Shown here one piece after another: positions 45,026 to 61,171 of a DNA stretch of 64,000 bases. Where the stretch lies: positions 62,001 to 126,000 of the forward strand of contig JAUYOG010000050.1 of NCBI GenBank assembly GCA_030695945.1, read 5' to 3'. Origin of the DNA: Ramlibacter sp. Its GTDB lineage: Bacteria; Pseudomonadota; Gammaproteobacteria; Burkholderiales; Burkholderiaceae_C. The position numbers and the translations under genes were made by a program. Each line of letters opens with the position of its first letter. The stretch's first letter is position 1. The notes under the pieces were generated by a model. It saw only the letters and a list, made by a program, of their open reading frames with translations, was not told where the DNA came from and made no database searches.

Positions 45026-45039
45026 CGCCCGCGTCTCCA

Positions 45040-45102
45040 TGGTGCCTCGGGCCGGACTCGAACCGGCACGCCCCCGTGAGGGAAAGCGGCGGATTTTAAG
45101 TC
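45040..45102 (-). pseudogene. leuZ: 3' half of host tRNA-Leu(UAA), split by integration
   Basis: Read on the minus strand it runs from the anticodon loop GACTTAAAATCC through the variable arm and T-arm CCGGTTCGAGTCCGG to CCGAGGC-A-CCA. The acceptor strand CCGAGGC pairs perfectly with GCCTCGG of the 5' half at 61165-61171. Joined at the shared 12-bp core, the halves make a normal 93-nt tRNA-Leu(UAA). Upstream element sequence does not rebuild a 5' half, so this copy cannot be functional. Confidence 0.92.
45091..45102. repeat. attL core
   Basis: GGATTTTAAGTC, identical to 61130-61141; identity stops on both sides. It corresponds to tRNA-Leu anticodon-loop sequence. Confidence 0.9.
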
Positions 45103-45218
45103 AATACCCAGCACGTAGCAGCACAAATGAATATACGCCAAGCACTTGATTTTGAAAGGGATTCCAGCGTTTCGAAGCGGTCGGTTTGTTGTGGTTTGTG
45201 GTGTGTGGCGGTGGTTGG

Positions 45219-45237
45219 TTACGCACGGATTACGCAC
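45219..45237 (+). promoter_or_regulatory. Candidate integrase arm-type sites (left), next to the element tRNA promoter
   Basis: TTACGCAC occurs at 45219-45226 and 45230-45237, an 11-base period. A matching pair with a 10-base period is at 61074-61091 near the right end. TATCAT at 45242-45247 is a plausible -10 box for the tRNA that begins at 45256, so these sites may overlap its promoter. Inferred only. Confidence 0.45.
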
Positions 45238-45255
45238 CAATTATCATGGCTCGGT

Positions 45256-45348
45256 GCGCGGGTGGCGAAATTGGTAGACGCAGCGGGCTTAAAACCCGCC
45301 GCCCACCCGGAAGGGAGCGTACGGGTTCGAGTCCCGTCCCGCGCACCA
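45256..45348 (+). tRNA. Element-borne tRNA-Leu(UAA)
   Basis: Complete cloverleaf: acceptor GCGCGGG/CCCGCGC with encoded A-CCA, D-arm with TTGGTAGA, anticodon stem GCGGG/CCCGC closing loop CTTAAAA (anticodon UAA), a long variable arm typical of class II tRNAs, and T-arm ACGGG-TTCGAGT-CCCGT. Its sequence differs clearly from the split host gene, so it is not a duplicate. The A-U pair flanking the host loop is G-C here, so it lacks the att core. It can supply the UUA/UUG-reading function lost by integration. Confidence 0.95.
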
Positions 45349-45371
45349 AGAGCAACTGAGGAAAGGCTCGA

Positions 45372-45863
45372 ATGGATGACCGAATGATCGCAGTGGCCGG
45401 CATCGTCCTGACCACGCTCGTTGGTATTCTTGGATGGTTGGGCATGCGACTGCGGCACTCGCAAGAAAGCCAGCGTAGCCTACGGAGCCAGAGGTCTGAG
45501 GCCCTGTCTATGGCCGGGGAAATCGACACCATTGCAAGGGGCATAGCGGCAAGCATCTCGGCTGCCATGCGAGTCGTTCGCGACAACGCTCAGCTGACGG
45601 GCGGACTAGGGGGCTCCCGTCAGAAGGTCAAGGAAGCCCAACTTAACGCGTTCGTGACGCGAGCCGATGAGGCCGCTGCCGATGCCCGCCTCATACTCAA
45701 GAGCCCCGATGCTTTGGGGTCGGACAGGGACTTGGATTCCCGTCTAGAAAGGCTGAATATTTCACGTGTTGTGGTCCTTGGCATCAAGGCGGAAGCAGCC
45801 GAATGCATTGCGGGGGTGCATCGCGACAATGAAACCTACCGGAAACTGCCAAAGCTGCACTGA
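45372..45863 (+). CDS. Hypothetical protein with one N-terminal membrane helix
   Basis: 163 residues. A single hydrophobic segment (IAVAGIVLTTLVGILGWLGM, about residues 6-25) precedes a charged, mainly helical domain with possible coiled-coil character. No family is recognised. It begins 24 bases after the tRNA-Leu. The N-terminal anchor would place the helical part in the cytoplasm. No link to neighbouring cargo genes is visible beyond orientation. Confidence 0.6.
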   Translation: MDDRMIAVAGIVLTTLVGILGWLGMRLRHSQESQRSLRSQRSEALSMAGEIDTIARGIAASISAAMRVVRDNAQLTGGLGGSRQKVKEAQLNAFVTRADEAAADARLILKSPDALGSDRDLDSRLERLNISRVVVLGIKAEAAECIAGVHRDNETYRKLPKLH

Positions 45864-46012
45864 AGGACACCGATCGCGCCGGCTGCGTTGGTCGGGCCTC
45901 AAGGGCGCGGTTTCCTGGCTGCTGTGTGCATGCTGTGTGCAGACGGAGCCGACCATTTTTCGAGCGCTCATCAGTACCCCTAGAATGAACTTCGATCAAC
46001 AAGGAAGAAGCC

Positions 46013-46450
46013 ATGGACCTCAAAGACTTCGTTGCCGCGTCCCTTACTCAAATTGCGGAGGGAGTCGCCCAAAGCGCTCCAGCCATTAGCGCACTTGGAG
46101 GCGCGGTGAGTCCGGCTTTTTCACCTTCAACCGCTCCTGGCGAATTCCTCGGTGAAGCAAGGGACGGTAGCAATGCGCCCGTTTATGGCGTGGCCTTTGA
46201 CGTCGCGGTGATAGTCGGAAGCGCAGGATCAGCCGAAGGCGGCGGCAAGCTCCAGGTGGCGAGCTTCCTTTCATTCGGCGGCAAGGTCGGGACAGCGGAG
46301 AGGGAGGAAACCACGAGCAGGATCAAGTTTGTGGTGCCGCTTCGGTTGCCGACCGACCCTGATTCCGTGAAAGGGGCGCTAGATGCAGAGGCCAAAGCTC
46401 AGGCGGCATTTAATCGACCGCTGCCGCCGCCAAGGAGGGGCACGTATTGA
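46013..46450 (+). CDS. Conserved small beta-rich hypothetical protein
   Basis: 145 residues. It starts with an amphipathic helix (LKDFVAASLTQIAEGVAQS) and continues as a Gly/Ser-rich beta region (FDVAVIVGSAGSAEGGGKLQ, ending SRIKFVVPLRLPTD). This layout recurs in many unnamed bacterial proteins and resembles trypsin-co-occurring (trypco2-type) domains; that comparison is tentative. AAGGAAGAAGCC precedes the ATG. It lies upstream of the nuclease-like/kinase trio and might be an accessory, but a 177-base gap separates them. Confidence 0.65.
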   Translation: MDLKDFVAASLTQIAEGVAQSAPAISALGGAVSPAFSPSTAPGEFLGEARDGSNAPVYGVAFDVAVIVGSAGSAEGGGKLQVASFLSFGGKVGTAEREETTSRIKFVVPLRLPTDPDSVKGALDAEAKAQAAFNRPLPPPRRGTY

Positions 46451-46627
46451 GGCCCCAGCAAGGGCCGGGCTTCGTGCGTGGTGACAGAGGTGGTGCTCCT
46501 GCGCACTGGACTACTACAAGTGGAGGATGCGGTGGCCCGGTCAGCCGTCAGAATACGGCTAGGGAGAATACGCTCGCTGGCGCTCGTTGGACCGGCTAGA
46601 CTTCGCACCCAGCCCACCCAATTGCCC

Positions 46628-47113
46628 ATGACTCAAGCAACATCCGCCAGAAGTTTCACCACCGAAGCCAGCTTGGTCGAGTGCTTCGTCGGGGCTCTTC
46701 AGGCTGGTCGGACGACGTTCGGCTCGCTGGAAGTCACCACTGAGTGGGATCACCGCTCAGGCTTTGTTGACGTTTTGGCTCGCGATGCCACGAACACGTT
46801 GATTGCATTCGAAGCCAAACTGCGTGACTGGAAACGCGCATTCATGCAGGCATACCGCAACACCGCATACGCCAACAAGGCATACGTGCTCCTGCCAGAC
46901 AGTGCCGCAAAGAACGCACTGCTACACAAGGAAGAATTTGAGTTGAGGGGGATTGGACTGTGTGCAATAAGCGAAAGCAGTGTGAACGTCCTGATCGAGG
47001 CAGCGGAACAGCAGCCGCTACTGGCGTGGCTGCACTCCCGTGCTCACGAACATTTCGATGGCGCGGCAGGTGAGCGCCAGGCTGCAGGCGGTAGCACAGA
47101 CGCTGTGTGCTGA
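46628..47113 (+). CDS. PD-(D/E)XK nuclease-like protein (candidate defence module, gene 1)
   Basis: 161 residues. The arrangement Glu13 (TTEASLVECF), Asp48 (SGFVDVLAR) and Glu62-x-Lys64 (LIAFEAKLRDWKRAFMQAYR) followed by AYVLLP matches the restriction-endonuclease-like core, including the helix with Gln after the E-x-K strand. The domain is small with no DNA-recognition extension, so specificity may come from partners. The frame is open from 46478, but ATG 46628 begins the plausible protein. It overlaps the kinase gene by 56 bases, implying coupled translation. Function is inferred from motifs only. Confidence 0.65.
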   Translation: MTQATSARSFTTEASLVECFVGALQAGRTTFGSLEVTTEWDHRSGFVDVLARDATNTLIAFEAKLRDWKRAFMQAYRNTAYANKAYVLLPDSAAKNALLHKEEFELRGIGLCAISESSVNVLIEAAEQQPLLAWLHSRAHEHFDGAAGERQAAGGSTDAVC

Positions 47114-47912
47114 CCGCGGATTCCAGTTCGCCGGCGACCTCGGTTCCGGCGCATTCAAGGTCGCCTTTCTCATCAAGCACGAAGGCCGCGACGCCGCGCT
47201 GAAACTTGCGGAGGTTCCGGGTTCGCCGGAGCGATTCATTCGCGAAGTCGCTGCACTTCGCAGCTGTGGTCATCCCAGTATCGCGACTGTCTTCGATGCC
47301 TTCACCATCACGGACGACGACGGTCGGCTGGTGTGGGTGGTGATCGAGGAGTACCTTGCAGGAGGTACGCTTGAGCAACGCCAGGCAGCACACCGACTGG
47401 CCATCGCTGACATTCGCGCAATCGGCACTAGCCTCGCCGAAGTGCTCGGACATCTGCGGGACCGTAGGCTGGTCCATCGCGACATAAAGCCGGCAAACAT
47501 CCTCTTCAGGGACACGAGCTCGATCCCGGTGTTGACGGATTTTGGCATCGTGCGAATGCTAGACGCTCCGTCCTTGACCCACGACTTTGCGGCAGCTGGC
47601 CCCGGCACTCCCGCCTACGCGGCGCCTGAGCAGTTGAACAATGAGAAGAATCTCATCGACTGGCGCACAGACCAATTCGGCCTTGCTGTGGTCTTGGCCG
47701 AAGGCATCCTGGGCAGACATCCATATCAGTCGATCGGTGAATCTGTTCGCGATGCAATCTTGAAGGTTTCTGCTCGCAGCCCTCTGCCAGATCAAACGAG
47801 ATTGGATCTTCGCGCCGCAGGATTTGGTTCCCTGGAGCAAGCGCTGGAGCCGTGGCCGGTGAAGCGCTATCGGCGCCCAGGAGACCTAGTGGAAGCAATT
47901 ACAAACGGATAG
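47058..47912 (+). CDS. Hanks-type Ser/Thr protein kinase (candidate defence module, gene 2)
   Basis: 284 residues and nothing but a kinase domain. All key motifs are intact: glycine loop LGSGAFKVAF (29-38), Lys49 in AALKL, the alpha-C Glu in REVAAL, HRDIKPAN (Asp142, Lys144, Asn147), DFG (161-163) and PAYAAPEQ. No transmembrane or PASTA segment follows, so it is cytosolic, unlike typical PknB. A GTG at 47040 is an alternative start. It overlaps gene 1 and ends 10 bases before gene 3. Soluble kinases beside nucleases are known in several phage-defence systems, so a phosphorylation-triggered response is a reasonable hypothesis. Confidence 0.9.
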   Translation: MARQVSARLQAVAQTLCADRGFQFAGDLGSGAFKVAFLIKHEGRDAALKLAEVPGSPERFIREVAALRSCGHPSIATVFDAFTITDDDGRLVWVVIEEYLAGGTLEQRQAAHRLAIADIRAIGTSLAEVLGHLRDRRLVHRDIKPANILFRDTSSIPVLTDFGIVRMLDAPSLTHDFAAAGPGTPAYAAPEQLNNEKNLIDWRTDQFGLAVVLAEGILGRHPYQSIGESVRDAILKVSARSPLPDQTRLDLRAAGFGSLEQALEPWPVKRYRRPGDLVEAITNG

Positions 47913-47922
47913 GGGTTGAACC

Positions 47923-49065
47923 ATGGGCGCATATTTGCAGCTGGGACACGAGTCGTGGAGCCTCCTTGGTGAGGATGACATCGGAGAGTATGTCGGCTTG
48001 GTGCTCAGCCCGGTCAACGACGATCCCTCGTATGTACATGACCGGCTTGGCCGGCTAGGTGACCAACTGCAGGACCTGGAGATCATCCTGGATCCTCAGC
48101 TTTACAACCCTTCCGCCGAAAAGGGCGAGTTGCCCACGTGGTCGCATTTCCCGAGCGATTTTGAAACTGCGGATCGATCAGACATCAATTGGTGGATCGC
48201 TGTGTCGCAACGAGTTGTAGAGGCGGCTGTCGGAATCGAAGCGGACGCGATCTGTACGCCGGCGCCGATTCCGCGCGTTGCTACTGACGAGTATTACCGC
48301 TTCGTCGTTGAAGTGGGCGATGCCGCATATGCTATCGCCGAACGGGCAAAACTTGACACGCTACTGACGGTCATCGTCCGTCTTCGTGATCTCGCTGACC
48401 CGAGGCGGGCGCTCGCTTGGGCCTCGATCTTGTCGGCAACCGATTGCGAGCGCATCTATCTTGTTTTTCTCGACGAAGACACACAGCAGAGAGAACCGTT
48501 CGGCGACGGTGCCGAACTGGCGACCGCAGTGCACTTCGTTCGCCTCTTGAGCGACAACTTACACGTTCACGTCGCGTTCTGCGCGCACGATCTGATGCTG
48601 TGGAAATTCGCTGGCGCCACCGATATCTCAAGCGGCAAATGGATGAATACCAGACGATTCACACCGGGCCGGTGGCGTGACGAGGATTCGGCTGGAAGGC
48701 AGGTCGCCTATTGGAACGAAGACCCCTTGTTGACGTTGCTGCGCGACCAGGACGTAACCCGCTTGGATCGAGACGGCTGGTTCAATGGCCGCTCGTTTAC
48801 CGACAATCCCGCCGCCGGCCGCATCCTTGACATACTTCGTCGTGGCACTGGCGAGGCCTGGCTGAAGCACTCGTGGATTCAATACCTTCGCTGGGTAAGC
48901 AATGCGACCGCGAGTCTCTCGTCTGGGGATGACACATTCCTGGCTGCGGCTGACGGTCGCTGGGCCGAGGTGGAGAATCGGCGGATTCTGTTCGTAGACC
49001 GGTTTAACAACGGTAATCACGCGCGCGTGTGGCTGAATGCTGCTCGGGAAGGCGGAGCTCGATAG
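47923..49065 (+). CDS. Unknown 380-residue protein (candidate defence module, gene 3)
   Basis: No signal peptide or membrane helix. The sequence alternates beta strands and helices in a way that suggests a TIM-barrel-like fold: GLVLSPVND, LEIILDPQLYNP, ADAICTPAPIPR, TVIVRLRDLADP, ERIYLVFLDED and HVHVAFCAHDLMLWKFAGA followed by SSGKWMNTRRFTPGRW. This pattern resembles unnamed proteins I associate with small kinases, but I cannot name a family. It starts 10 bases after the kinase stop and is clearly co-transcribed. A catalytic or sensing role in the trio is unproven. Confidence 0.8.
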   Translation: MGAYLQLGHESWSLLGEDDIGEYVGLVLSPVNDDPSYVHDRLGRLGDQLQDLEIILDPQLYNPSAEKGELPTWSHFPSDFETADRSDINWWIAVSQRVVEAAVGIEADAICTPAPIPRVATDEYYRFVVEVGDAAYAIAERAKLDTLLTVIVRLRDLADPRRALAWASILSATDCERIYLVFLDEDTQQREPFGDGAELATAVHFVRLLSDNLHVHVAFCAHDLMLWKFAGATDISSGKWMNTRRFTPGRWRDEDSAGRQVAYWNEDPLLTLLRDQDVTRLDRDGWFNGRSFTDNPAAGRILDILRRGTGEAWLKHSWIQYLRWVSNATASLSSGDDTFLAAADGRWAEVENRRILFVDRFNNGNHARVWLNAAREGGAR

Positions 49066-49354
49066 CGAGGTACTGGCCCGCCAGGATCTTCCACCATCGG
49101 GTCAACTATAGGCCACCTCTATCCGTCGAAATTTGCCCGAAAAGTGGGCAGCTCTAAGCTGTTGATTTTGAAGGAAATCGACGATCGCCTCGGGGGTGGT
49201 GGGTAGTAGGGGCGTCGCCGATCGCCTCGTGCGCGTCGATTGCGGTGGGTTGACGGGGCTTTTCTTGATGCGGGAAATTGGGCCGATGAGAGAAGCTAAC
49301 GCACCCCAGACCGGTCGCCCGGCCTGGACCTGGGCCGTGCCACAATCCGCCAAC
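49066..49354. other. Intergenic region, no gene seen
   Basis: Contains GATCGCCTCG twice about 35 bases apart and an AT-rich patch near 49155. No promoter or terminator is confidently recognised. The reading frame of the next gene is open back to 49196, but that part looks non-coding. Confidence 0.4.
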
Positions 49355-49948
49355 ATGCTTACCGCCGAGCTTCACTCGTCTCTCGTCTACCTTGATCGAG
49401 ACTTCATCGCAGGCAAGTACGAGCTCGTTTCCGGGCAGTCGCCGAGTTCTCAAATTACAAAGACACAGGGCAAGAAGGCGGGCGCCGCAATTCCCATCTT
49501 CTCCGCAGAAGTCAGCGCCGTTGAAACTCGTACGTTTCCAATCTCAACCCTGGAAATGCTGGCGGCCGTGATGCCGCTGATCAGCGCGGAAGGCGACCTC
49601 GATCCGTCAACGTTTAAGAGGGATATGCGTTCCCATGTCGGATGGGTGACCGGCAAACTCGGGACCATGTCGGCCAAGCCATCAAAGGGGGTGTCGGGAA
49701 CACCAACGTACGAAGCCGGTGAGGAGCAAGGCTGCTTCACACTCCAGCATGGTTCATTGAAGTTGGCCCTCATTGCCACCCCGGACTACTTTGTCTCGGG
49801 CCTGGACGCTCTGATCAAAATGCACAAAGTTCTTTTGCGGGACTTGACGATGCCGGTCCGTGCTTTCGTTCGCGTCATTCCAGCACAGAACTACACGGAC
49901 CACTGGATCGCAATTCCCTATGTCATGCACGAGCCAATAGATGGCTAA
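49355..49948 (+). CDS. Hypothetical cargo protein
   Basis: 197 residues, soluble. It begins LTAELHSSLVYLDRDFIAGK and contains ITKTQGKKAGAAIPIFSAE. The opening YLD segment faintly recalls DUF6414-type proteins, which I cannot confirm. It ends with a hydrophobic strand region VRAFVRVIPAQNYTDHWIAI. The ATG at 49355 is chosen by where protein-like sequence begins. It lies after the kinase trio with a 289-base gap, so it is probably a separate unit. Confidence 0.6.
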   Translation: MLTAELHSSLVYLDRDFIAGKYELVSGQSPSSQITKTQGKKAGAAIPIFSAEVSAVETRTFPISTLEMLAAVMPLISAEGDLDPSTFKRDMRSHVGWVTGKLGTMSAKPSKGVSGTPTYEAGEEQGCFTLQHGSLKLALIATPDYFVSGLDALIKMHKVLLRDLTMPVRAFVRVIPAQNYTDHWIAIPYVMHEPIDG

Positions 49949-49969
49949 CCTGTAGCTGCGCGCTCGGTA

Positions 49970-50323
49970 TCAGATGCCCACTTCGGGCACGTCGACCCCG
50001 AGCTCACGCCCAAACCACTCGCTCACCATGCGCCGGTGACACCAGTTCGTCGCGGTGAAGGGTGGGCGTTCGTAACACAGGAGCACCGGCTCGACCCCGG
50101 CGCCGGCGAGCGCCTCAAGTTCCTCAACCACGGCGCGAGCGTCGAGCTGCGCCAGCTGCCGGAGGTACAGCTCGCGGTAACGGCGCTCGTCGACGCTGTT
50201 AAACCAGGGACCAGGTGCCAGCGGCCGGTAGATCCGGAAGCCCGCTGGCACGTTGCGCGGTGCATAGCGCGCGATCGAGATCCGCCCAGGGCCGCTGAAG
50301 GTGAAGAACGAAGCCGTCTTCAT
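49970..50323 (-). CDS. DUF488 family protein
   Basis: 117 residues. The C-terminal part has the DUF488 hallmark: a Cys in VLLCYERPPFTATNWCHRR followed by a short helix and an acidic end (VPEVG). The family is small, cytosolic and of unknown function. It is the only minus-strand gene among the early cargo and converges with the preceding gene. Codon use looks closer to the host average than its neighbours. Confidence 0.75.
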   Translation of the reverse strand: MKTASFFTFSGPGRISIARYAPRNVPAGFRIYRPLAPGPWFNSVDERRYRELYLRQLAQLDARAVVEELEALAGAGVEPVLLCYERPPFTATNWCHRRMVSEWFGRELGVDVPEVGI

Positions 50324-50672
50324 GAATGTTGGAACCGACGTGCTCGTCGAGGTTCCTCTCGATGCAGGCGTCCGTTATGCTTGAGTGTTGGGCACTCCAC
50401 GGAGTCACAAAGCCGCTACGCACTGAGCCCCATCCCAACGCGGCTGAGGTATTTTGCTGTCATCTGCGATCAGTGTGGCTTTCGTCCTGTGCTGGGATTG
50501 GAAGGTCCGCCCTCGACCTTCCCGAGCAGCACGGCGGATGCCCTCATGCTGTTCATTTTCACCACGGCATCCTCGCCATCTCTTGCGAAGTAGTTAAGAG
50601 CCCGTGTGCTGCCGTCGTGCTGATACTCGGCTGGCGGCGTATTCGCTTGTCTCCGTTTCAATAAGGTTCCCC

Positions 50673-50894
50673 ATGTATTACGAGTACTACCAAGTTCAAC
50701 CGCTCATTGGCGGAGTAGCTGACCGAGGGCTTCTCTCGGTCGCACCACAGGATTGGCGTTGGCGGCTCAAAGCCGACAATCACAAGGTTATTGCAAGTGG
50801 GCAGGGATACAGTGACAAGCAGGATTGCCTTCACGCAATTGAGCTGATGAAAGCAACAACGCTGGCTACCCTGGTGAAGCTCGTTTCCGCCTAG
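50673..50894 (+). CDS. Small YegP/DUF1508-like protein
   Basis: 73 residues. The core WRWRLKADNHKVIASGQGYS followed by CLHAIELMK matches the beta-beta-alpha YegP repeat (one repeat). Function is unknown. AAGG lies upstream of ATG 50673; the open frame back to 50604 is not family-like. About 350 bases upstream hold no recognised gene except the divergent DUF488 start. Confidence 0.7.
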   Translation: MYYEYYQVQPLIGGVADRGLLSVAPQDWRWRLKADNHKVIASGQGYSDKQDCLHAIELMKATTLATLVKLVSA

Positions 50895-50906
50895 CAGAAA
50901 ACCTGC

Positions 50907-51692
50907 TTACTTAGCCGGTTTTACGGGGGAGGATGATGCGGTCGCACTAGGCTGGCGAGCAGCTGCAGCCGCCGTCGCTGACTTTGCGGGCGTGGCGGTC
51001 AAGGCATCAAGGATGGGGCCAGCGTAATAGGTAGCGGCGCTGGCGACCAGCCCATACGCCAGCAGCACAAACCAAAACTCCATGCTCGCATGCCGCGCGC
51101 CATCAGCCCAACGCCTGTTCAACCACTTCAAGTGTTCGTAAGTCTTGTTCGGCTTGCCAGAAGTCTCGCCGCTTTCGACGCGGATCAACTCATGCCCGGC
51201 GTCCGAGAGCCGGGAGACAATCCCGCGCAAACTGCCCTTCATTAGGTCTTCGTCGAGGTCGCCATGTCTCACTCCCACCGCCACGAATTCGAAGTAGTTT
51301 AGAAAGTACCTCACTCCGTCCACGACTGCGACGGACTCTGTTGCGGATATCTGTTCGGCGGCCAGCCTGCGATATGGCTGGCCCGGCGGGGCAAGCGCGG
51401 CGTTCACCTCCCCTACCTTTTGCATGTAAAGCTGCGACAACCGAGACTGCAGCAGCGTATTGACCGTGTGTTGCTTTACTGAATTCCGAATAGTGACAAT
51501 CGCGTTCACGATCCATCCAGTTAGGGCCGCGAACGCGGCAAATGCAACCACCCACTGCGCTCCGGCAAACTGTCGCACATCAGCCGCTGGCAAATTTGTT
51601 TGCCAATACACAAGGCCAGCAGAGAGGCCAAGAACTGCGGACAGCAAAAGGCCCAGTACGCGACTGGGCCTAAACGTTCCGGGCGGAACCAT
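50907..51692 (-). CDS. Membrane protein with DUF4760-like region
   Basis: 261 residues. Two N-terminal TM segments (LGLLLSAVLGLSAGLVYW and VVAFAAFAALTGWIVNAIVT), a cytosolic middle with FLNYFEFVAVGVRHGDLDED (DUF4760-like), a C-terminal TM helix and an Ala/Pro/Ser-rich tail. Function is unknown. It converges with the YegP-like gene. It lies next to a cluster of tiny genes near an SOS box but on the opposite strand. Confidence 0.7.
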   Translation of the reverse strand: MVPPGTFRPSRVLGLLLSAVLGLSAGLVYWQTNLPAADVRQFAGAQWVVAFAAFAALTGWIVNAIVTIRNSVKQHTVNTLLQSRLSQLYMQKVGEVNAALAPPGQPYRRLAAEQISATESVAVVDGVRYFLNYFEFVAVGVRHGDLDEDLMKGSLRGIVSRLSDAGHELIRVESGETSGKPNKTYEHLKWLNRRWADGARHASMEFWFVLLAYGLVASAATYYAGPILDALTATPAKSATAAAAARQPSATASSSPVKPAK

Positions 51693-51780
51693 TAACCGAG
51701 TCCGCTACCTTCGCCTAATCGCTTCATGCCCATCTCCTTTGCAGTTGATTTGTTTACAGTATTGCACAAGTTGCCCGCGC

Positions 51781-51915
51781 TCATTCGCCAGTTCCTTTTG
51801 CGCGGGCTTTCGCTGGTTTCTTAATTGCATGCGCATCTGGTGCGACGTGATCCAGTGATGTGGCGATGCCACGCCAGTTGTTACGGCGATGGCCAATGCA
51901 CTCCGACAGAGCCAT
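51781..51915 (-). CDS. Possible 44-residue protein adjacent to the SOS box
   Basis: The sequence begins ALSECIGHRRNNWRGIATSL and ends in a Lys/Ala-rich tail. Its ATG lies two bases from the LexA-like box. The tail composition looks protein-like, but length and lack of a Shine-Dalgarno make this uncertain. It could equally be a remnant of a longer gene. Confidence 0.3.
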   Translation of the reverse strand: MALSECIGHRRNNWRGIATSLDHVAPDAHAIKKPAKARAKGTGE

Positions 51916-51917
51916 AC

Positions 51918-51937
51918 TACTGTAAATTTCAACAGTA
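51918..51937. promoter_or_regulatory. LexA (SOS) box
   Basis: TACTGTAAATTTCAACAGTA contains a perfect CTGT-N8-ACAG core with TA flanks, matching the LexA consensus of gamma- and betaproteobacteria at every conserved position. Thirteen bases to the right starts a run of small plus-strand genes ending in a DNA ligase gene. It is a strong candidate for DNA-damage control of that run, of the small minus-strand frame, or of both. Confidence 0.75.
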
Positions 51938-51949
51938 CACGAAGCAGCA

Positions 51950-52069
51950 ATGAGTCCTTGGCGCCTTGGAACATGCATGGACAGCGCCCCCATCGGCGCC
52001 CCGCGTGGGCGACTTGTCGCGCCGGACGACGAGGCGCTGACCAGCTTCGCTGAACGGGCAAGAGTGTGA
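51950..52069 (+). CDS. Possible 39-residue protein, first gene of the SOS-box run
   Basis: The frame from ATG 51950 reads SPWRLGTCMDSAPIGAP and ends ERARV. Its TGA overlaps the GTG of the next frame (GTGA at 52066), the same kind of coupling seen elsewhere in the element. No Shine-Dalgarno is clear. Coding status rests on position and coupling only. Confidence 0.35.
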   Translation: MSPWRLGTCMDSAPIGAPRGRLVAPDDEALTSFAERARV

Positions 52070-52329
52070 AGACGGTCGAGCAATTTCGCTGGTACCTGCC
52101 GCCCAAGCGGTGGGCCGGACCGCGGGCGCTGCCGTATTTGTCGAGTTGGTCGATGGACGCGGAGACTGCTGCGCGGCACGGCGCACTCCGACCTGAACCG
52201 AGCACGCGTACCGTCCTGCAGGTTCCAGAAACACCGGAGGAAGAAGCGCAGCTGCGGCGCGCCAGCGACACCAGTGCCCTCGGCGGGCCCGCGCCAGGTG
52301 GTCAGGGCAACGTGAAGGCTGGGCCCTGA
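52066..52329 (+). CDS. Small hypothetical protein (PETPEE-type)
   Basis: 87 residues starting at GTG 52066. It contains EQFRWYLPPKRWAG and VLQVPETPEEEAQLRRASDT. Short proteins with a similar PETPEE-DTSAL region occur in Burkholderiales plasmids and islands as I recall them, with no known function. It overlaps the preceding mini-gene by four bases and is followed by a 106-base gap. Confidence 0.5.
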   Translation: MKTVEQFRWYLPPKRWAGPRALPYLSSWSMDAETAARHGALRPEPSTRTVLQVPETPEEEAQLRRASDTSALGGPAPGGQGNVKAGP

Positions 52330-52435
52330 AGTTCTCCGCCTACCGCCATTCGCCTTCAAGACGTTCGGAGCCAGCCTACTGGGGCGCACCAAGCTCGCCT
52401 ACAGCGATAGCTGTTCGTAGGGCCAGTATTTGGTG

Positions 52436-52693
52436 ATGGGCGACCTATCGGATCAATTCGCGGGTTGGCGCGACGTCTGCGATCGAGCAGCGAAGGCTCA
52501 GCTCGCCCTGACTGACGCTGAGGTTCAGTCCTGTCTTCATGGAAGACCCGAACCGTCGCCGGAAGAACGCGCCAACGTTGCGCGCCTTCAGGCGGAATGC
52601 ACAGCCGTGTTCAGAGCGTTGTTGGCTCGAATGAAAGACCGAGCCGAGGCACTGAGGCACGCGCGTTCGGACCCACGCGGTGACGACCAGTGA
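52436..52693 (+). CDS. Small helical hypothetical protein upstream of the ligase
   Basis: 85 residues, mostly helical: WRDVCDRAAKAQLALTDAE and VARLQAECTAVFRALLARMK. Possible coiled coil. The end overlaps the GTG start of the ligase gene by 14 bases, so the two are probably co-translated. No family is recognised. Confidence 0.5.
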   Translation: MGDLSDQFAGWRDVCDRAAKAQLALTDAEVQSCLHGRPEPSPEERANVARLQAECTAVFRALLARMKDRAEALRHARSDPRGDDQ

Positions 52694-53345
52694 TGCCACG
52701 GCGACCGGCGGATCTATGTTGGCACCAGACCGCGCGCCCCTGCCAGCGCCCATGAAGGCACCCGAGGGGTTGCGGCCGCCCTTCTCATCGCCGGATTGGC
52801 TCTTCGAGGTCAAGTTCGACGGCTACCGCTGCATGGCTCGGATCGAGAACGGGCAGGTCGACCTGCACACGAAGTCCGGCGCCGACTGCACGAGCTGGTT
52901 TCCCGAGGTGGCCCAGGCCTTGACCAAGATCAAAGGAGCGCACGTGATCGACGGCGAGGCCTGCGTGCTGGACGACCAGGGCCTCAGCGACTTCAACCGG
53001 CTGCAAACGCGTGCGCGGCACAGGCGTTGGTACCCGGGGTGTGACCCGGTGACACTGTGCTCCTTCGACATCCTGGTGCATCGCGGCCAGCCCGTAATGG
53101 GCTTGCCGCTACTGGAGCGCAAGGCGCTGCTGCAGGAGCTGCTGGCCGACGTGCCGGGGGTTCTGTTCGTCAAGGACTTGCCGGCGGACTCGGGCCTGTT
53201 CAAGGCCATGGAACTTGCGGGCCTGAAGATCGAGGGTGTTGTGGCCAAGAGGAAGGCCAGCACCTACCAGCCTGGCGTGCGTTCGCCGGACTGGCTGAAG
53301 ATCAAACGCCCGGGCTGGCAGGAGGGTCGCGCGTGGCGGCCCTGA
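52680..53345 (+). CDS. Minimal ATP-dependent DNA ligase (adenylation domain only)
   Basis: 221 residues. The nucleotidyl-transferase Lys45 is in FEVKFDGYR (motif I); VIDGEACVLDDQG (motif III), SFDILV and EGVVAKRK (motif IV) follow, and motif V is WLKIKRPGW. The protein ends there, lacking the C-terminal OB-fold of LigD-type ligases, yet the stop looks natural. Members of this short group occur in Burkholderiales; sealing activity without the OB domain would be limited or need a partner. The start is GTG 52680, with ATG 52716 as an alternative. It lies downstream of a LexA box, which fits a repair role. Confidence 0.82.
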   Translation: MTTSDATATGGSMLAPDRAPLPAPMKAPEGLRPPFSSPDWLFEVKFDGYRCMARIENGQVDLHTKSGADCTSWFPEVAQALTKIKGAHVIDGEACVLDDQGLSDFNRLQTRARHRRWYPGCDPVTLCSFDILVHRGQPVMGLPLLERKALLQELLADVPGVLFVKDLPADSGLFKAMELAGLKIEGVVAKRKASTYQPGVRSPDWLKIKRPGWQEGRAWRP

Positions 53346-53377
53346 CGCCGCAGCGCCTCGACGCCGTCTGTACGATC

Positions 53378-54069: not shown

Positions 54070-55437
54070 TCATGTTCTTCGTGAACTCGCCCGCACAAAT
54101 TCGTTCACGTCTTTTTCGGCGGCGGGCGGTGTAGTCTTCGGCGCCGGGGCGAAGGGGTCCGGTCGCGCGTCACGCTTGGCGAGTGCTGCCAGGCTGAAGT
54201 TCTGCTGCTGCAGGTAGACTGTGCCCCCGCCGTCCAGGGCCGGCAGGTTCAACTCGGCGCGGGCTTCGTTGGGAGCCATGATGCCGCCACCAACAGCCTT
54301 CGCCAATTTCTCGATCTGGGCCATCTGGTCCATGCGCAGCAGGCCGCGCAGGTCGAATTCGACGCCGGACCCATCCGGGACCTGCAGCCCCTCGTCCAGG
54401 CACAGCTCCAGCGCCTCGATGTGTGGCTGCAGGCAGTCGTCGTAATACTGCTGGTTCAGGATGTCCGCGCTGTCGGCCGCGGGCGCGTCACCGGCGCCGA
54501 TTTTGTAGAGCGGCATGCTGAACGCACGGGCCACGTCCTTGACGGTCCACTCCAGCTGTTCGATCAGCTGCGCCTCGTCGGCCGCGATCGTCATCGCCTC
54601 GTACTTCAGGCCATCGCCCGCGACAAACAGCCGTCCGATGTTCTCGTGGCCGAAGTTCTGCTCGAAGGTCGCCTTCAGCCGCTCCGCGGTCGGTTCGTCA
54701 ATCGTGGCCGGGGCTGTGAGCATGCCGCTCGGGCGGCTCATGTTGGCGAAGAAGGCGTTGCTGTTTCGCTGGATCCGCAGGCCCTGGGTCGCGCTGATCC
54801 CGCAGGCGTAGATCGGCGAGATCCCGACCAGGGGGTGCCAAAGGCAATTCATCCGGTCGTGGATGATCTCGCTGGCCGGCACCGTGAGCCCACCGGAAGG
54901 AACACCGGCGAGGTCGTCGCCGCCGATGTTGTAGTAAACGTCGCCGGTGGGCGTGACCAGCGGGACCACGCGCCGCGGGTCGAGCAGGTACATGCGCCGC
55001 ACCCTCTTGTGATCGTCGCGCTCCTTGAACGCGTAGGTGTTTCCGTGGATCAGCTTGCAGATCAGCCAGTACGTGAAGAACTGGATCCGGTTCTGGAAGT
55101 GGTTGGGCCGGCGCAGCGGGATGTTGTGCGGCGCCTCGTCGGGAGCCTCGACCCAAAGGCGATCCGCGCGCACCATGAGGCGCGGCTGCAGCTTGCCGAT
55201 GTCGTTGGCGATGCGCGAAACGCAGGCGTACACCGCGCCATAGGCGGTGAGCGCGCCCATCGGCTCGATCTCCGCGCCGCGCTGCCAGGCGCCGGCGTAG
55301 GGCTCGCGCAGCCAGCCCAGCATGCCGCCGCCGTTGCGCAGCGGCCGCGTCATGCCGGTGACGTCGGATCCAAAGAGAGACGTGACGGCCGAAACAGTAG
55401 CTTTGACGCGTTGCCTGAGGTTTGCGAGCGGCTTCAC
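54070..55437 (-). CDS. Phage portal protein (HK97 type)
   Basis: 455 residues. Family segments include AVYACVSRIANDIGKLQPRL, FFTYWLICKLIHGNTYAF, GISPIYACGISATQGLRIQR and the tail region DVARAFSMPLYKIGAGDA. The portal forms the dodecameric DNA gateway of the capsid. No terminase, protease, capsid or tail gene accompanies it in the element. The C-terminus looks complete. It overlaps the preceding small gene by four bases, so it is expressed with the replication module if at all. Confidence 0.9.
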   Translation of the reverse strand: MKPLANLRQRVKATVSAVTSLFGSDVTGMTRPLRNGGGMLGWLREPYAGAWQRGAEIEPMGALTAYGAVYACVSRIANDIGKLQPRLMVRADRLWVEAPDEAPHNIPLRRPNHFQNRIQFFTYWLICKLIHGNTYAFKERDDHKRVRRMYLLDPRRVVPLVTPTGDVYYNIGGDDLAGVPSGGLTVPASEIIHDRMNCLWHPLVGISPIYACGISATQGLRIQRNSNAFFANMSRPSGMLTAPATIDEPTAERLKATFEQNFGHENIGRLFVAGDGLKYEAMTIAADEAQLIEQLEWTVKDVARAFSMPLYKIGAGDAPAADSADILNQQYYDDCLQPHIEALELCLDEGLQVPDGSGVEFDLRGLLRMDQMAQIEKLAKAVGGGIMAPNEARAELNLPALDGGGTVYLQQQNFSLAALAKRDARPDPFAPAPKTTPPAAEKDVNEFVRASSRRT

Positions 55438-55715: not shown

Positions 55716-55803
55716 GTGGTCGTCTCCTTGTGGTGCGAGAAGTGTCGGACCGATGACGGCGGACAACAATAGCGTCCGTGGGTGTGGCGGGTTTGCGCGG
55801 GTT

Positions 55804-56211: not shown

Positions 56212-56220
56212 CACACTCAC

Positions 56221-56534: not shown

Positions 56535-57281
56535 TCACTCCGTCGAGAGCCGTGCCCCGCGGTGGCTGGGCCAATTGCACACGATGGTCCGAGCGCCCTC
56601 GCGCAACCGGTCGAACGCTCGATCGCCGAGCGCTGTCCGCAATAAGGGAGCATTCAAGTTCGACAACAACACCGTCGGCCGCTTCAGCGTGTAGCGCAGA
56701 TCTATTACGTCCAGCAGTTGAATCTGCTCGCCCTCGGTTCCGAAACCTAGGCCAACCTCGTCGAGAACCAGCAGGGCCGGCAGTCCGAAAGCCTCTAGCA
56801 CCTCTTCCTCGTTCTCGGACGCATCGCGGCGCCATGTGGCGCGCAAGCGCCGAACGATTTGCCGGGCGCTGGCAATGTACGCGCGCTTCGTGTGCCGGTT
56901 GATAACGTCGCCAACCATCGCTGCGCCCAAATGGCTCTTTCCGGTGCCCGGTGGGCCGATCAGCCAGAGCCCATTGCCCTGGTCCGCATGGAAAGCCGGC
57001 CCGGTGAAGGCGCGGCAGACTTCCAGTGCAGCCTGCTGCTCCTTCGTCGCGACCGCAAAGCTGTCGAAAGTGGCCTCGACGTAGCGCCCCGTGATGCCGC
57101 TATCGCGCAAGTACTCCTGCCGGCGTTTCTCGGCGAGCTGGCGCTCGGCTTCCGCGCGCTGGCGAAGCTGAGCCTCCTGACAACACTGCGGGCAATTGGT
57201 CCAGCGTCCAGCCAAGTACTCTTGCGCACGATAAGGACCATGCTGCGCACACGTGCGGCCCTCTGTACTGAGGTTCCTCAA
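56535..57281 (-). CDS. DnaC-like helicase-loader AAA ATPase
   Basis: 248 residues. An N-terminal Cys4-type zinc site (CAQHGPY at 11-17, CPQC at 30-33) and a Lys/Glu-rich helix lead to an IstB/DnaC AAA domain with Walker A GPPGTGKS (109-116) and Walker B LLVLDEVG. It would load the host replicative helicase at the element's origin. The start is TTG 57281, overlapping the stop of the upstream replication gene (TTGA), with AAGGTG upstream. The pair forms a replication module. Confidence 0.88.
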   Translation of the reverse strand: MRNLSTEGRTCAQHGPYRAQEYLAGRWTNCPQCCQEAQLRQRAEAERQLAEKRRQEYLRDSGITGRYVEATFDSFAVATKEQQAALEVCRAFTGPAFHADQGNGLWLIGPPGTGKSHLGAAMVGDVINRHTKRAYIASARQIVRRLRATWRRDASENEEEVLEAFGLPALLVLDEVGLGFGTEGEQIQLLDVIDLRYTLKRPTVLLSNLNAPLLRTALGDRAFDRLREGARTIVCNWPSHRGARLSTE

Positions 57282-58195
57282 GGGAGCACCTTTCCAGCGG
57301 CATCAATGCCGGCTGAGTAGTCCGTGCGCAGGCCCACGTCGCTGACTGCGCCGTTGGTCCTCCACAAAGTACGCAGCTTTTGCGCGTCGCGCAGCATCAC
57401 GTGCACTGGGTGGAGCTGATTAACATAGAAGGGTTCGTTGCTCTTGAGGTAAAACGCTGCCACTTTCGGTGCTTCTTCGAGGCCGACTGCGGAAACGAAA
57501 TGGGCAAGCTGACCATTCACCGCCGCGCTGCGAATGGGCTCTTCGCCGTGCCGTGCTTTGAACGCTTGGCGATACGCTTCCCACGTGGGAACTGTCTTCC
57601 CCAGCTTGTCAGGTTGATGACGACTGCTCACCCTCTTTGGCTTTGCCGCGCCAGCCGATTCGTCCGAAGGATGGGAGGCTGAAGCAAGGGATTCAGGGAA
57701 TCCGGAATCAGAGAAGAGGGATTCAGCACGGCTTGCCGCTCCTGCCAAGTCACCTCTAGTTGCTAAAACACGACTTGGCAGCCCGGCATCGCCCTGGGCC
57801 TGGGGTGGTTGGGAGCCACCATGTGCCTCAGGCCCTACAGGGTTGCTAAGGGGGGCTGGCCCTGGACTTTGCGGAGGTGGCGGGATCGTGCTTGGCGGTT
57901 CTCGATGGTGTGGGTTCTGGTGCTTTCTGAATCTCAGTATTTGGATGAACGGTACGCCCCCAACGACGTAGCGCACGATGAAGCCATGCTGCTCAAGTTC
58001 AACAAGAAGCGGCTCCACGTCGACTGAGTCGTATCTGAAGGCATATCCCTTGATGCGCAGTGGCCGGTCTTCAAGCCGGCCTTCGCGGCAGGCCATCTGC
58101 CATAGCGCGGGATAGAGCAAACGCGCAGCCATAGTGCAGGCACCGAGCTCCTCGTTTTCATAGAAGCCCGGTTTGATGTTGCGTGCGCGGGCCAT
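57278..58195 (-). CDS. Phage-type replication initiation protein
   Basis: 305 residues. The N-terminus MARARNIKPGFYENEELG with LYPALWQMACREGRLEDRP is the winged-helix start typical of phage replication (DnaT/O-like) proteins. A Pro/Ser-rich linker (110-190) follows, then a C-terminal DnaB/DnaC-interaction-type helical domain (WEAYRQAFKARHGEEPIRSA). It pairs with the DnaC-like gene through a TTGA overlap. It likely binds the element origin, which was not identified. Confidence 0.82.
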   Translation of the reverse strand: MARARNIKPGFYENEELGACTMAARLLYPALWQMACREGRLEDRPLRIKGYAFRYDSVDVEPLLVELEQHGFIVRYVVGGVPFIQILRFRKHQNPHHREPPSTIPPPPQSPGPAPLSNPVGPEAHGGSQPPQAQGDAGLPSRVLATRGDLAGAASRAESLFSDSGFPESLASASHPSDESAGAAKPKRVSSRHQPDKLGKTVPTWEAYRQAFKARHGEEPIRSAAVNGQLAHFVSAVGLEEAPKVAAFYLKSNEPFYVNQLHPVHVMLRDAQKLRTLWRTNGAVSDVGLRTDYSAGIDAAGKVLP

Positions 58196-58431
58196 CAGTT
58201 CTTCCCTTCGACGCGCCGCGCAGTCAACAGCATAGCGACGCCTTCAATTGAGTTTCTGTGCAACAACCGCCCGTCGTCCCTACGCATGAAGCCGGTGCGT
58301 ACCTCACGCAGAACGTACCCCTGATCCGCTGCGCGAGCCCGGATGTCGGCAAAACGCTGCCGCTCAGCGACGTCTCGGCCTGATCCGGAAGCTTCAAAAT
58401 TGGGCACGGCCGTCATGCGCGGCGAGGCCAT
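58195..58431 (-). CDS. Small hypothetical protein
   Basis: 78 residues with a basic central part (ADQGYVLREVRTGFMRRDDG) and a hydrophobic C-terminal helix. It shares one base with the replication gene start and follows the HTH gene by three bases, so it belongs to the same operon. No family is recognised. Confidence 0.6.
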   Translation of the reverse strand: MASPRMTAVPNFEASGSGRDVAERQRFADIRARAADQGYVLREVRTGFMRRDDGRLLHRNSIEGVAMLLTARRVEGKN

Positions 58432-58434
58432 TAC

Positions 58435-58665
58435 TCAGGCCGTCCGAGTCGCGAGCCAGGCTTCGTATCGCGGTCTGTGGATCAGCAACTTCTTGCCGAC
58501 TCGAACACACGCGTATGCCAGGCCGTTTGCTTCACGGTGGCGCAATTGCCAGCGCAACGCGGCCACGCTCAAGATGCTGGGAAAGGCTTCTGCCAGTTGG
58601 TCGACTGTGTTCAGGTCATCGAGCGACATTGCGTCGCCGTTGGCGTGGATAGCTTGTGTTTGCAT
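58435..58665 (-). CDS. AlpA/excisionase-like small HTH protein
   Basis: 76 residues. The segment LNTVDQLAEAFPSILSVAAL then RWQLRHREANGLAYACVRVG, KKLLIHRPRYEAWL gives a MerR/AlpA-type winged helix of the small regulators found beside integrases in Burkholderiales islands. It may control integrase or replication genes or act as an excisionase. It is first in the short operon 58665-56535. The 145 bases upstream probably contain its promoter. Confidence 0.75.
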   Translation of the reverse strand: MQTQAIHANGDAMSLDDLNTVDQLAEAFPSILSVAALRWQLRHREANGLAYACVRVGKKLLIHRPRYEAWLATRTA

Positions 58666-58810
58666 GTCGCACCTTTCAAAAAGTGCGCGGCATGCTGTCT
58701 ATCTTTGGTGCATCGCCGCGCGTTGTTTGCATGTGCGGCGAAGATATTGCGGATGTTCCGTCTAGGTAAGTAGCTCTGCGCCGAATCGGCTAGCCGCTAC
58801 GATGCACTGG

Positions 58811-59500: not shown

Positions 59501-59889
59501 TGGGCCAGCCCGGCTTCGTCGAGAATGCGTCCTGCCTCCTCGAGCGCGGCGACTGCGGGCTGCAGCGCGCTGTACAGCGATGGGCTCACGTTTTCCATGG
59601 ACTGTGCCCCAACAAGCATAGCCACGGCCGGCAACACCACGCAGCCGTAGCACTGACTAGGGTCGCTGCGCTGAAGCGTATCGGCCTTGTCGCCCAGGAG
59701 GCTTAGAGCATCGCCGATCAGCTGCTTCGCATACGTCCCGTGGCGGGCCATCGTGTCGTTCAGCAGAACATCTTTGACTTCGAGCATGACGTCTTCGGCT
59801 TGCACGACCAAGTCGCCGACGCGCGCGCGCCAGCGCATGCGCGTGGGCAATGCGATGACGCGGGCGCCGCTGCTTTCGGCTTTATCCAT
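59497..59889 (-). CDS. Hypothetical protein
   Basis: 130 residues, largely helical, starting ATG 59889. Segments include DLVVQAEDVMLEVKDVLLND and ALQPAVAALEEAGRILDEAG. A Cys pair occurs in SQCYGCVVLP. No family is recognised. It lies 42 bases after the integrase and overlaps the following gene, so the order int - hyp - hyp is a transcription unit. Confidence 0.6.
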   Translation of the reverse strand: MDKAESSGARVIALPTRMRWRARVGDLVVQAEDVMLEVKDVLLNDTMARHGTYAKQLIGDALSLLGDKADTLQRSDPSQCYGCVVLPAVAMLVGAQSMENVSPSLYSALQPAVAALEEAGRILDEAGLAQ

Positions 59890-59931
59890 GTTGCACCGGT
59901 CCTTTCGTGGTAAGTGCGCGGTGGCCGTCCG

Positions 59932-61041
59932 CTATTCCTTCTTCCCGGCCAGCAAGCGCTCAGCCAGTTCCACCGAATCCGCCGCAGAAAGATGCCCGTA
60001 TCGCTTCAACATGGCCAGCGTCTTGTGTCCGCTCACGACCGCGGCCTGGGCCAGGTTCGCCCCGCCCTTGAGCATCTTCGTGACGCCGGTATGGCGGGTG
60101 GTATGCAGCACGACGCGGTCGAGCGGGTCCTCGCGATCGTTGAGGAGCCCGGCGTCCTCACGGCACTTGCGCCAGACGGTATCGGGGTTCATGGGCTTGC
60201 TGGGATCGCGTGGGTTGAAGAACACGAAATCCGAATGCAAGGGCTTCACCTTCGCTGCCGCGGCCAACGCCGCCTTCACGTCGGACACCAGCGGCAGCGC
60301 CCGGGGCTGGCCGTTCTTCGTCTTGCCGAGAACGGCGATCGAATCTTCCAGGCGCAGGTCCCGCCAGCGCAGCTTCAGCACCTCGCCGCGACGCGCGGCC
60401 GTGGTCAGGCAAGTGCGCACGAACAAGTGCAGCATCGGCCACGTGCTGGCCTTTGCCGCTGCCATCAACCGGGCTTCCTCTTCGGCGCTCAGTATCCGCG
60501 TGCGGCCACCGCTCTCCTCCAGCTTCGACACCTTGCCGCCCTTCATCGGATGCACGTCAATGATCTCGCGCTCCATGGCGAAGTTGAAGACCGACGAGAG
60601 CGAAGCGAGGTAGCGATTGACGGTGGCCGCTGTGAGTCGCTGGCCCGTAACCTTCGATCCTCCTGGAGTGCTGCGCAGCGCGGGCTTGATCTGCAGCTTC
60701 GCCTTCGCGGCATTGATGTCGCCGCGGGAGATTTCGCGGACCCTCATGTTGCCCAGCTGGGAGCGCCAGAAGTCGAGGTGGCCGGCGGTCCAGTAGCGCG
60801 TGCCCTTGCCAGGCGGCGCCATCGTGAAGTCTTCGATCAGGTCCTTCAGCAGCTGCCCGCTGCCGGCCTTCTCGAGTGTCGAATCCGCGTCGTTATTCCG
60901 AAGCCATTCAGCGGCTTCACGCTTCGTCTCGCAGACCTTGGATTTGCTCGCGAACCCTTTGCGCCGCACGAACGCTCGATGCAAGGTGATCGTCTTGCCC
61001 GTGGCCTTGTCCGTGCGCTTGATCGTGACGATGGAGCCCAT
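59932..61041 (-). CDS. int: Tyrosine recombinase / integrase
   Basis: 369 residues. The catalytic set is complete: Arg218 (AARRGE), Lys242 (GKTKNG), His313-x-x-Arg316 (LHTTRHTG), His339 (SGHKTL) and nucleophile Tyr348 (KRYGH). N-terminal arm-binding (1-60) and SAM-like core-binding domains (60-165) precede it. It lies 88 bases from attR and is transcribed away from it, as in many tRNA-targeted islands. The target is the anticodon loop of tRNA-Leu(UAA), judged from the att core. Two TTAC-type repeats between int and attR are possible arm sites. Confidence 0.95.
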   Translation of the reverse strand: MGSIVTIKRTDKATGKTITLHRAFVRRKGFASKSKVCETKREAAEWLRNNDADSTLEKAGSGQLLKDLIEDFTMAPPGKGTRYWTAGHLDFWRSQLGNMRVREISRGDINAAKAKLQIKPALRSTPGGSKVTGQRLTAATVNRYLASLSSVFNFAMEREIIDVHPMKGGKVSKLEESGGRTRILSAEEEARLMAAAKASTWPMLHLFVRTCLTTAARRGEVLKLRWRDLRLEDSIAVLGKTKNGQPRALPLVSDVKAALAAAAKVKPLHSDFVFFNPRDPSKPMNPDTVWRKCREDAGLLNDREDPLDRVVLHTTRHTGVTKMLKGGANLAQAAVVSGHKTLAMLKRYGHLSAADSVELAERLLAGKKE

Positions 61042-61073
61042 GATGCAGCCTCACATTCAGGGCGCGGGGGTCC

Positions 61074-61091
61074 TTACACACCATTACGCAC
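61074..61091 (+). promoter_or_regulatory. Candidate integrase arm-type sites (right)
   Basis: TTACACAC at 61074-61081 and TTACGCAC at 61084-61091, spaced 10 bases, matching the left pair at 45219-45237. Nearby, ATGAAATATACACC at 61110-61123 resembles ATGAATATACGCC at 45127-45139, another shared motif near both ends. Confidence 0.45.
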
Positions 61092-61129
61092 AACTACCCG
61101 CAAACCCGCATGAAATATACACCTAGGAA

Positions 61130-61141
61130 GGATTTTAAGTC
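61130..61141. repeat. attR core
   Basis: GGATTTTAAGTC, identical to 45091-45102, inside the 5' half of the split tRNA-Leu gene. Confidence 0.9.
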
Positions 61142-61171
61142 CGCTGTGTCTACCCATTTCACCACCGAGGC
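61130..61171 (-). pseudogene. leuZ: 5' half of host tRNA-Leu(UAA), split by integration
   Basis: On the minus strand it starts GCCTCGG (acceptor), continues through the D-arm (GGTGAAATGGGTAGACAC) and the 5' side of the anticodon stem GCGGA to loop CTTAAAA-TCC, then runs into element DNA (TTCCTAGGTGTATATTTC) that cannot complete the tRNA. It follows tRNA-Gly and tRNA-Cys in the order glyW-cysT-leuZ, which identifies it as the leuZ equivalent. Promoter context upstream is intact, so a truncated transcript may still be made. Confidence 0.92.

Follow-up and report, generated by a model that had tools for sequence, protein, structure and literature searches.

An integrase-bearing element that splits leuZ and carries its own tRNA-Leu(UAA) in Ramlibacter: a probable case of tRNA-dependent lysogeny

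Introduction

tRNA-dependent lysogeny has been described, and proven with mutants, in the actinobacteriophages Fionnbharth, LeBron and Gaia (Guerrero-Bustamante and Hatfull 2024, PMC10865867), whose authors considered that its prevalence beyond actinobacteriophages needs more investigation. In ordinary tRNA-targeted integration, which rebuilds the gene, mycobacteriophages typically have a common core of 30-45 bp (PMC10865867). In two strains of Sinorhizobium meliloti, prophages resembling Mesorhizobium phage vB_MloP_Lo5R7ANS are found in tRNA-Leu(UAG) (PMC11476347), and Sinorhizobium prophages that rebuild their tRNA have also been reported (PMC12429752). Here we describe a 16-kb element at positions 45040-61171 of a 64,000-nucleotide stretch of Ramlibacter sp. 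DNA (assembly GCA_030695945.1, contig JAUYOG010000050.1, positions 62,001 to 126,000; the whole stretch is called the window). The structural features of tRNA-dependent lysogeny, namely a phage-type integrase beside the site, a short core, a tRNA gene that is not rebuilt and an element tRNA of the same isotype, are all found at this locus. We propose, with a probability of roughly 0.9, that this is an integrated phage-like element using the tRNA-dependent lysogeny strategy.

Interruption of leuZ and the replacement tRNA

On the minus strand the host genes run in the order lon, tRNA-Gly(GCC), tRNA-Cys(GCA) and the first 42 bases of tRNA-Leu(UAA) (leuZ; 61171-61130), past which the sequence runs into DNA leading to a tyrosine integrase gene (int; 59932-61041), with 88 bases separating int from the leuZ 5' half. 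The remaining 63 bases of leuZ, core included, are found 16 kb away at 45102-45040. The features concerned are:

45040 to 45102, minus strand, leuZ 3' half, beginning with the far-end copy of the 12-base core (45091-45102)
45256 to 45348, plus strand, complete replacement tRNA-Leu(UAA) with encoded CCA, opposite to leuZ (ARAGORN; Rfam RF00005, 59.8 bits)
59932 to 61041, minus strand, tyrosine integrase of 369 aa (Pfam PF00589, E 7.4e-22; phrog_1, E 9.8e-53; alignments)
61130 to 61171, minus strand, leuZ 5' half, ending with the integrase-side copy of the 12-base core (61130-61141)
61304 to 61377, minus strand, host tRNA-Cys(GCA), upstream of leuZ (ARAGORN)
61458 to 61533, minus strand, host tRNA-Gly(GCC), upstream of leuZ (ARAGORN)

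The two halves overlap by exactly GACTTAAAATCC (12 bp), which lies in the anticodon loop region, and joining them in silico yields 93 nt, which ARAGORN identifies as tRNA-Leu(taa). At neither junction of the element did ARAGORN or Rfam find a tRNA, and the gene is rebuilt nowhere; the only tRNAs these programs report around the element are those at 45256-45348(+), 61304-61377(-) and 61458-61533(-). An earlier reading of this DNA from its letters (the sequence-only reading) had proposed that leuZ is split by a 16-kb element, with a shared 12-bp core and no tRNA at either junction, and this was borne out. The possibility that it raised against itself, an origin of the halves in unrelated genes, is contradicted by the same-genus genome G078, which of 40 genomes compared is nearest in the adjacent DUF6806 gene (94.7% at the amino acid level). 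In G078 leuZ is uninterrupted with the DUF6806 gene downstream, and the upstream flank nearly matches that of the window over the ~25 bases available before the contig ends. Since G078 holds an uninterrupted leuZ with matching flanks, the halves are taken to come from one gene. Other element-free relatives with an intact leuZ exist (L037-L042 and others), and the gly-cys-leu order noted in the sequence-only reading is found in the same stretches. The G+C content per kilobase is 0.57-0.60 over 45000-51999, the left part of the element, against 0.66-0.72 in the three kilobases to its left.

The replacement is, as had been claimed, a complete tRNA-Leu(UAA) of different sequence, identical to host leuZ at 73 of 94 aligned positions. 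The Ramlibacter assembly is a draft of 3.75 Mb in 73 contigs (79% complete) with 37 tRNAs (Rfam). Its nine class-II tRNAs, all read by ARAGORN, comprise Leu CAA, CAG, UAG and UAA, the remainder being Ser and Tyr. No second tRNA-Leu(UAA) is present among the 37, a scan that an intron-bearing copy could escape; Leu GAG was likewise not seen in this assembly. Genome G817 carries a related element on its one contig (99% complete). Amongst its complete list of 54 tRNAs there is no UAA but the element's copy, with the same proviso on introns; its other ten tRNAs of at least 82 bases are Leu CAA, UAG, CAG (twice) and GAG, four Ser and one Tyr. In both genomes, as far as the 79%-complete own assembly reaches, the broken host tRNA therefore appears to be single-copy, and the proposal that the element tRNA compensates for leuZ gains support from the lack of a second intact UAA gene among the tRNAs read in either.

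A family of elements at leuZ

A search for close relatives among species genomes gave four integrases (G084-G087) 60-63% identical to that of the window. To these were added a virus record (69%), G817 (61%) and G586 (60%), the last two from 399 same-order genomes. The order-wide search (E<=1e-60) matched 4/399 genomes, one being the element's own genome and another, G476, being taken as a record of G086 (identical contig number and coordinates), while a class-wide search of 369 genomes at E<=1e-80 returned only the own genome. Matches to the integrase in 207 of 50,697 phage records and 2,369 of 72,556 plasmid records were all below 60% identity. The virus collection gave one relevant record, which ends at the start of int and is uninformative on the tRNA; a partial match (L140, 33%) was dropped.

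Six elements are leuZ-sited with the far end present (window, G084, G085, G086, G087 and G817). Their integrases are 56-96% identical, and 6/6 share the same split, arm-type repeats in pairs and, at the far end, a tRNA-Leu(UAA) that faces the opposite way. In G084-G087 and G817 a tRNA-Leu 5' half precedes the integrase and breaks off inside GACTTAAAATC or immediately behind it, and the far end runs in the order complete inverted tRNA-Leu(UAA), arm-type repeats, TTGACTTAAAA, leuZ 3' half. Since five other integrase relatives adjoin leuZ split at the identical place, the split is more than chance. Joining the flanks gives tRNA-Leu(taa) in 5/6 elements, the contig of G084 ending inside the 3' half. 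The integrases of G085 and G086 are 96% identical and their replacement exons agree at 83/85 positions, whereas the split host genes agree at only 65/87; as the replacements are alike while the host genes diverge, the replacement travels with the element.

The sole family member found outside leuZ is G586, with an integrase 56-60% identical to the others in an element of ~15.3 kb bearing TACTCCGAAT at both ends. ARAGORN found no tRNA on the first 38.9 kb of its 46-kb contig or in the joined empty site. Near the usual place of the replacement, all that is present of a tRNA is a stretch of 32 bases with the T arm, the acceptor end and CCA, matching the window replacement at 87.5% identity; this remnant also gives a longer, weaker match to host tRNA-Leu(UAG) (74% over 62), which leaves its isotype uncertain. 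The host retains an intact tRNA-Leu(UAA). This single case fits a coupling between the replacement and the leuZ site, and may reflect a changed attP rather than use of a secondary site.

Two fragments of tRNA-Leu genes were seen beside other members. In G087 (Magnetospirillum aberrantis) the leuZ 3' half occurs again 2.7 kb past the element, at C45:135788-135825 (L149), identical over 38 matched bases. In the SKS4 genome L057:9773-9813 looks by eye like another tRNA-Leu 5' half, now decayed, immediately upstream of the split gene's own.

In the Azonexus and SKS4 metagenome genomes ARAGORN recovers the replacement only with intron detection enabled (214 and 213 bases). These element tRNA-Leu(UAA) genes (L129:4627-4925 and L131:15928-16225) have an anticodon-loop intron of 213-214 bases and share 198/215 aligned positions. 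The Azonexus intron (L129) matched an Rfam group I family in a lenient search (E 1.2e-8; 39.9 bits, below the family gathering score of 50). Among the intron-free replacements, GACTTAAAATC is retained in G084 and GACTTAAAAT in G087, and the core is different in the window and in G817. Protection of the replacement is thus not general. In the same-genus genome G004 (L135:9680-9991) the normally placed leuZ has, by ARAGORN, an anticodon-loop intron of 225 bases, which would also interrupt the integrase target.

Attachment site, arm repeats and a possible int promoter

The core consists of the seven-base anticodon loop and at least 2 stem bases, 12 bp in the window and 9-12 bp over the six elements. 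On both sides of it, in 6/6 elements, TGCGTAA and close variants form pairs 10-11 bases apart, which would serve as integrase sites. In the window the relevant features are:

45099 to 45104, minus strand, TTGACT, an element-side -35-like hexamer that would face the int -10 in the circle (TTGACT in 6/6 leuZ elements)
45219 to 45236, minus strand, paired arm-type repeats TGCGTAA/TGCGTAA in the interval from replacement tRNA to core, 10-11 bases apart (a pair on this side in 6/6 elements)
61074 to 61090, minus strand, paired arm-type repeats TGCGTAA/TGTGTAA in the interval from core to int (pairs at +49 to +61 in 6/6 elements)
61114 to 61119, minus strand, TATATT, an int -10-like hexamer, 18 bp from TTGACT in the joined circle only and from CGGACT when integrated

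In 6/6 elements attP has TTGACT at the core and, 18 bases away, a -10-like hexamer (3 to 5 of 6 matches); the integrated junctions give CGGACT, GAGACT or GCGACT in place of TTGACT. A promoter rebuilt across the core could thereby make int active in the circle and silent once integrated. We offer this as a hypothesis only, because G586, which speaks against it, is without TTGACT at the corresponding place and because conservation of the hexamer could instead come from integrase binding.

Proposed mechanism and alternative explanations

We propose that the tyrosine integrase recombines attP with leuZ through a core matching the anticodon loop and a few stem bases (9-12 bp). Because attP would be without the leuZ 3' half, integration would cut leuZ in two and rebuild nothing. 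In the circle the order would be tRNA-Leu(UAA), arm pair, core, arm pair, int, and cutting at the core would leave the tRNA reversed at the far end once the element is integrated. If, as we infer, the element is still able to excise, excision would restore leuZ, and provided that the replacement is expressed and charged the cell would always have one working tRNA-Leu(UAA). If leuZ is essential, deletions that take the tRNA with leuZ split would be barred, as would any loss once the integrase is dead. The sequence-only reading had held that the element is hard to lose by internal deletion. This stands for deletions removing the tRNA while leuZ is split; clean excision would rebuild leuZ, and therefore only partial deletions would be barred.

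Several observations weigh against this proposal or narrow it. The integrases of G085, G086 and G087 are 85-96% identical, so that the six elements represent about four independent lineages. In G084-G087 no other UAA was found among the class-II tRNAs listed, which leaves sole-copy status less sure there; a tRNA-Leu(UAA) pattern search in these four genomes matched only the element copies and leuZ 3' halves, a weaker result since the pattern misses many real genes (36/60 same-genus genomes matched). TTA codons are rare, with 5 in 12,228 codons of 25 mechanically chosen host open reading frames (ORFs) of the window, found in 5/25, and leuZ is for this reason only likely to be essential. No consensus sigma-70-type promoter for the replacement was found on the plus strand there, where a -10-like hexamer was read by eye:

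45242 to 45247, plus strand, TATCAT, just upstream of the replacement tRNA

The minimum-energy fold of the replacement is not a cloverleaf (z -1.71), yet the tRNA covariance model scores it as a tRNA. Finally, with a portal gene but no capsid or terminase found, lysogeny may be the wrong word for the lifestyle of the window element.

A first alternative is that the replacement tRNA is there to support phage translation or to evade defences that cut tRNAs, with leuZ compensation a side effect. Such functions have been proposed for phage tRNAs (PMC10865867 discussion), and both roles could coexist. As an explanation in its own right we consider this very unlikely, since in 6/6 elements the replacement is of the same isotype as the gene that is broken and sits in the integration module, and the one member outside leuZ has a remnant only.

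It could also be argued that a classical tRNA-restoring insertion took place, the restored half was later deleted, and the complete tRNA is an unrelated passenger. The same-genus genomes G022 and G024, with a full tRNA and a displaced 3' half, lend this some weight, as does an older fragment next to the element:

44954 to 44985, minus strand, 3'-end fragment of a leuZ-like tRNA, with the leuZ 3' half on one side and the host flank on the other (flank compared visually with that of G078)

This fragment is probably the trace of an earlier insertion at a hot spot. The prospect of a restoring insertion is nevertheless an even slimmer one, since the split place, arm pairs and inverted tRNA recur in 6/6 elements from several hosts, which chance deletion would not repeat, and an attP with the leuZ 3' half is found in none of the 6 family members. 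An assembly chimera or mis-binned contig, conceivable given the draft state of the assembly, is scarcely credible with the uninterrupted, flank-matched locus of G078 (upstream over ~25 bases only) and the same architecture in single-contig G817 and Magnetospirillum aberrantis SpK.

Gene content of the element

Apart from the integrase, whose residues R217, H313, R316, H339 and Y348 are invariant in the alignments (which do not include G817 and G586) and which we take to be its catalytic residues, the element encodes:

47040 to 47912, plus strand, Ser/Thr protein kinase, cargo (PF00069, E 2.1e-28; by PADLOC resembles the PD-T4-6 and mad6 defence kinases)
52680 to 53345, plus strand, ATP-dependent DNA ligase domain, cargo (PF01068, E 3.6e-26)
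54070 to 55437, minus strand, phage portal protein (PF04860, E 5.2e-72; phrog_2271, E 6.4e-113)
56535 to 57281, minus strand, DnaC-like helicase loader (phrog_50, E 3.9e-59)
57278 to 58195, minus strand, replication initiation protein-like (phrog_16167, E 4.9e-37)
58435 to 58665, minus strand, 76-aa protein, after int (a relative in 6/6 elements compared: window, G084-G087 and the trimmed virus record)

The 76-aa protein had no Pfam or PHROG match, and an excisionase-like role for it is only a guess. The cargo half (45372-53345) holds the protein kinase, DUF488-like, DUF1508 and DUF4760 proteins, the ligase domain and several unnamed proteins, and is possibly concerned with defence. A full prophage was considered and rejected, no terminase or capsid being present among the window ORFs searched (Pfam, PHROGs).

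The phage genes found in the window are those for the portal, DnaC-like and replication proteins only, and the relatives have different partial phage sets: primases in G084 and G086, a terminase in G084, internal virion proteins in G087, and head and tape-measure proteins in the virus record. The window element and its relatives are phage-derived, at about 14-16 kb. Phage satellites (PICI, cfPICI and kin) are likewise about 15 kb, with an integrase, replication genes and a dependence on a helper phage. The likeness here extends to size, integrase and replication genes, and the elements may be either satellites or reduced prophages.

Inverted tRNA-Leu(UAA) genes in the genus

tRNA-Leu(UAA) genes 92-98% identical to the replacement are found in the same-genus genomes G020, G024 and G002, and one of 82% identity in G018. 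In G020, G024 and G018 this tRNA is oriented opposite to gly-cys, 0.06 to about 3 kb away, and in G020, G002 and G018 it adjoins the DUF6806 gene, facing the opposite way. In none of the four did a leuZ query match anything better than other tRNA-Leu genes, and in the stretches from G020, G024 and G018 ARAGORN found no leuZ at its normal position. The inverted tRNAs of G020, G024 and G002 may be all that is left of such elements, or may have supplied the replacement; that of G018 may be separate.

Against their being remains, no arm repeats were seen by eye beside the tRNAs of G020, G024 and G002, and among 60 same-genus genomes no integrase above 38% identity was found except in the own genome (31/60, own included, had any match). 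In a tree of one neighbour gene (40 genomes) G020, G024 and G002 do not group, and a single clade is not rejected (p-AU 0.176 with the window genome, 0.282 without).

In G024 a stretch that by eye resembles a toxin-antitoxin pair (L119:9458-10479) lies between the full inverted tRNA-Leu(UAA) and a displaced 3' half, an arrangement that would point to an ordinary tRNA-restoring element having entered the replacement-type gene. In G005 two further fragments (L124:9904-9953 and L126:7243-7280), on other contigs than leuZ, match the 3' part of the replacement at 96-97% identity.

A wider picture of the family can be drawn only tentatively, and as a whole it stands at well under even odds. The host would depend on the element tRNA; a group I intron in two relatives would deprive the replacement of the integrase target; an int promoter of the TTGACT-18-TATATT type would exist in the circle and be broken by integration; and within the genus, decay to a lone inverted tRNA would have made this the host gene (G020, G024 and G002), with element capture driving turnover of a core tRNA gene.

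Comparison with known systems

The window element appears to be a further case of a published principle, with possible new features in its relatives. It would extend tRNA-dependent lysogeny to an integrase family in beta- and alphaproteobacteria whose elements are too small for obvious full phages. The member outside leuZ, having lost its tRNA, provides a natural test of function, and the family offers a mechanism whereby a foreign gene could replace a core tRNA gene. A literature search, in which few subscription journals were covered, found no description of the leuZ(UAA) family, of intron-bearing replacement tRNAs or of an int promoter such as that proposed here, present only in the circle.

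Ordinary tRNA-targeted prophages and islands also target the anticodon loop, but their attP carries the 3' half and rebuilds the tRNA, which is not the case in the window. In the Lactobacillus johnsonii prophage Lj965 the tRNA is not rebuilt and a cognate tRNA is present on the prophage (via the discussion of PMC10865867), as in the window. As far as is known, its host and element are unrelated to those described here. The Sinorhizobium meliloti prophages (PMC11476347) are proteobacterial, break a tRNA-Leu centrally and carry a tRNA of the same kind; the isoacceptor differs (UAG).

The actinobacteriophages of PMC10865867 share with the window element a tyrosine integrase, an attB in a host tRNA gene that is not rebuilt, an element tRNA of the same isotype and putative arm pairs flanking the core; the core is 8-17 bp in those phages and 12 bp in the window. 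The two differ in host and tRNA, being Actinobacteria with Lys-TTT, Ile2-CAT and Leu-CAA in that work and Proteobacteria with Leu-UAA here. They also differ in kind, since the actinobacteriophages are full temperate phages with proof from mutants, whereas the leuZ elements, described here from sequence, are about 14-16 kb and carry partial phage gene sets.

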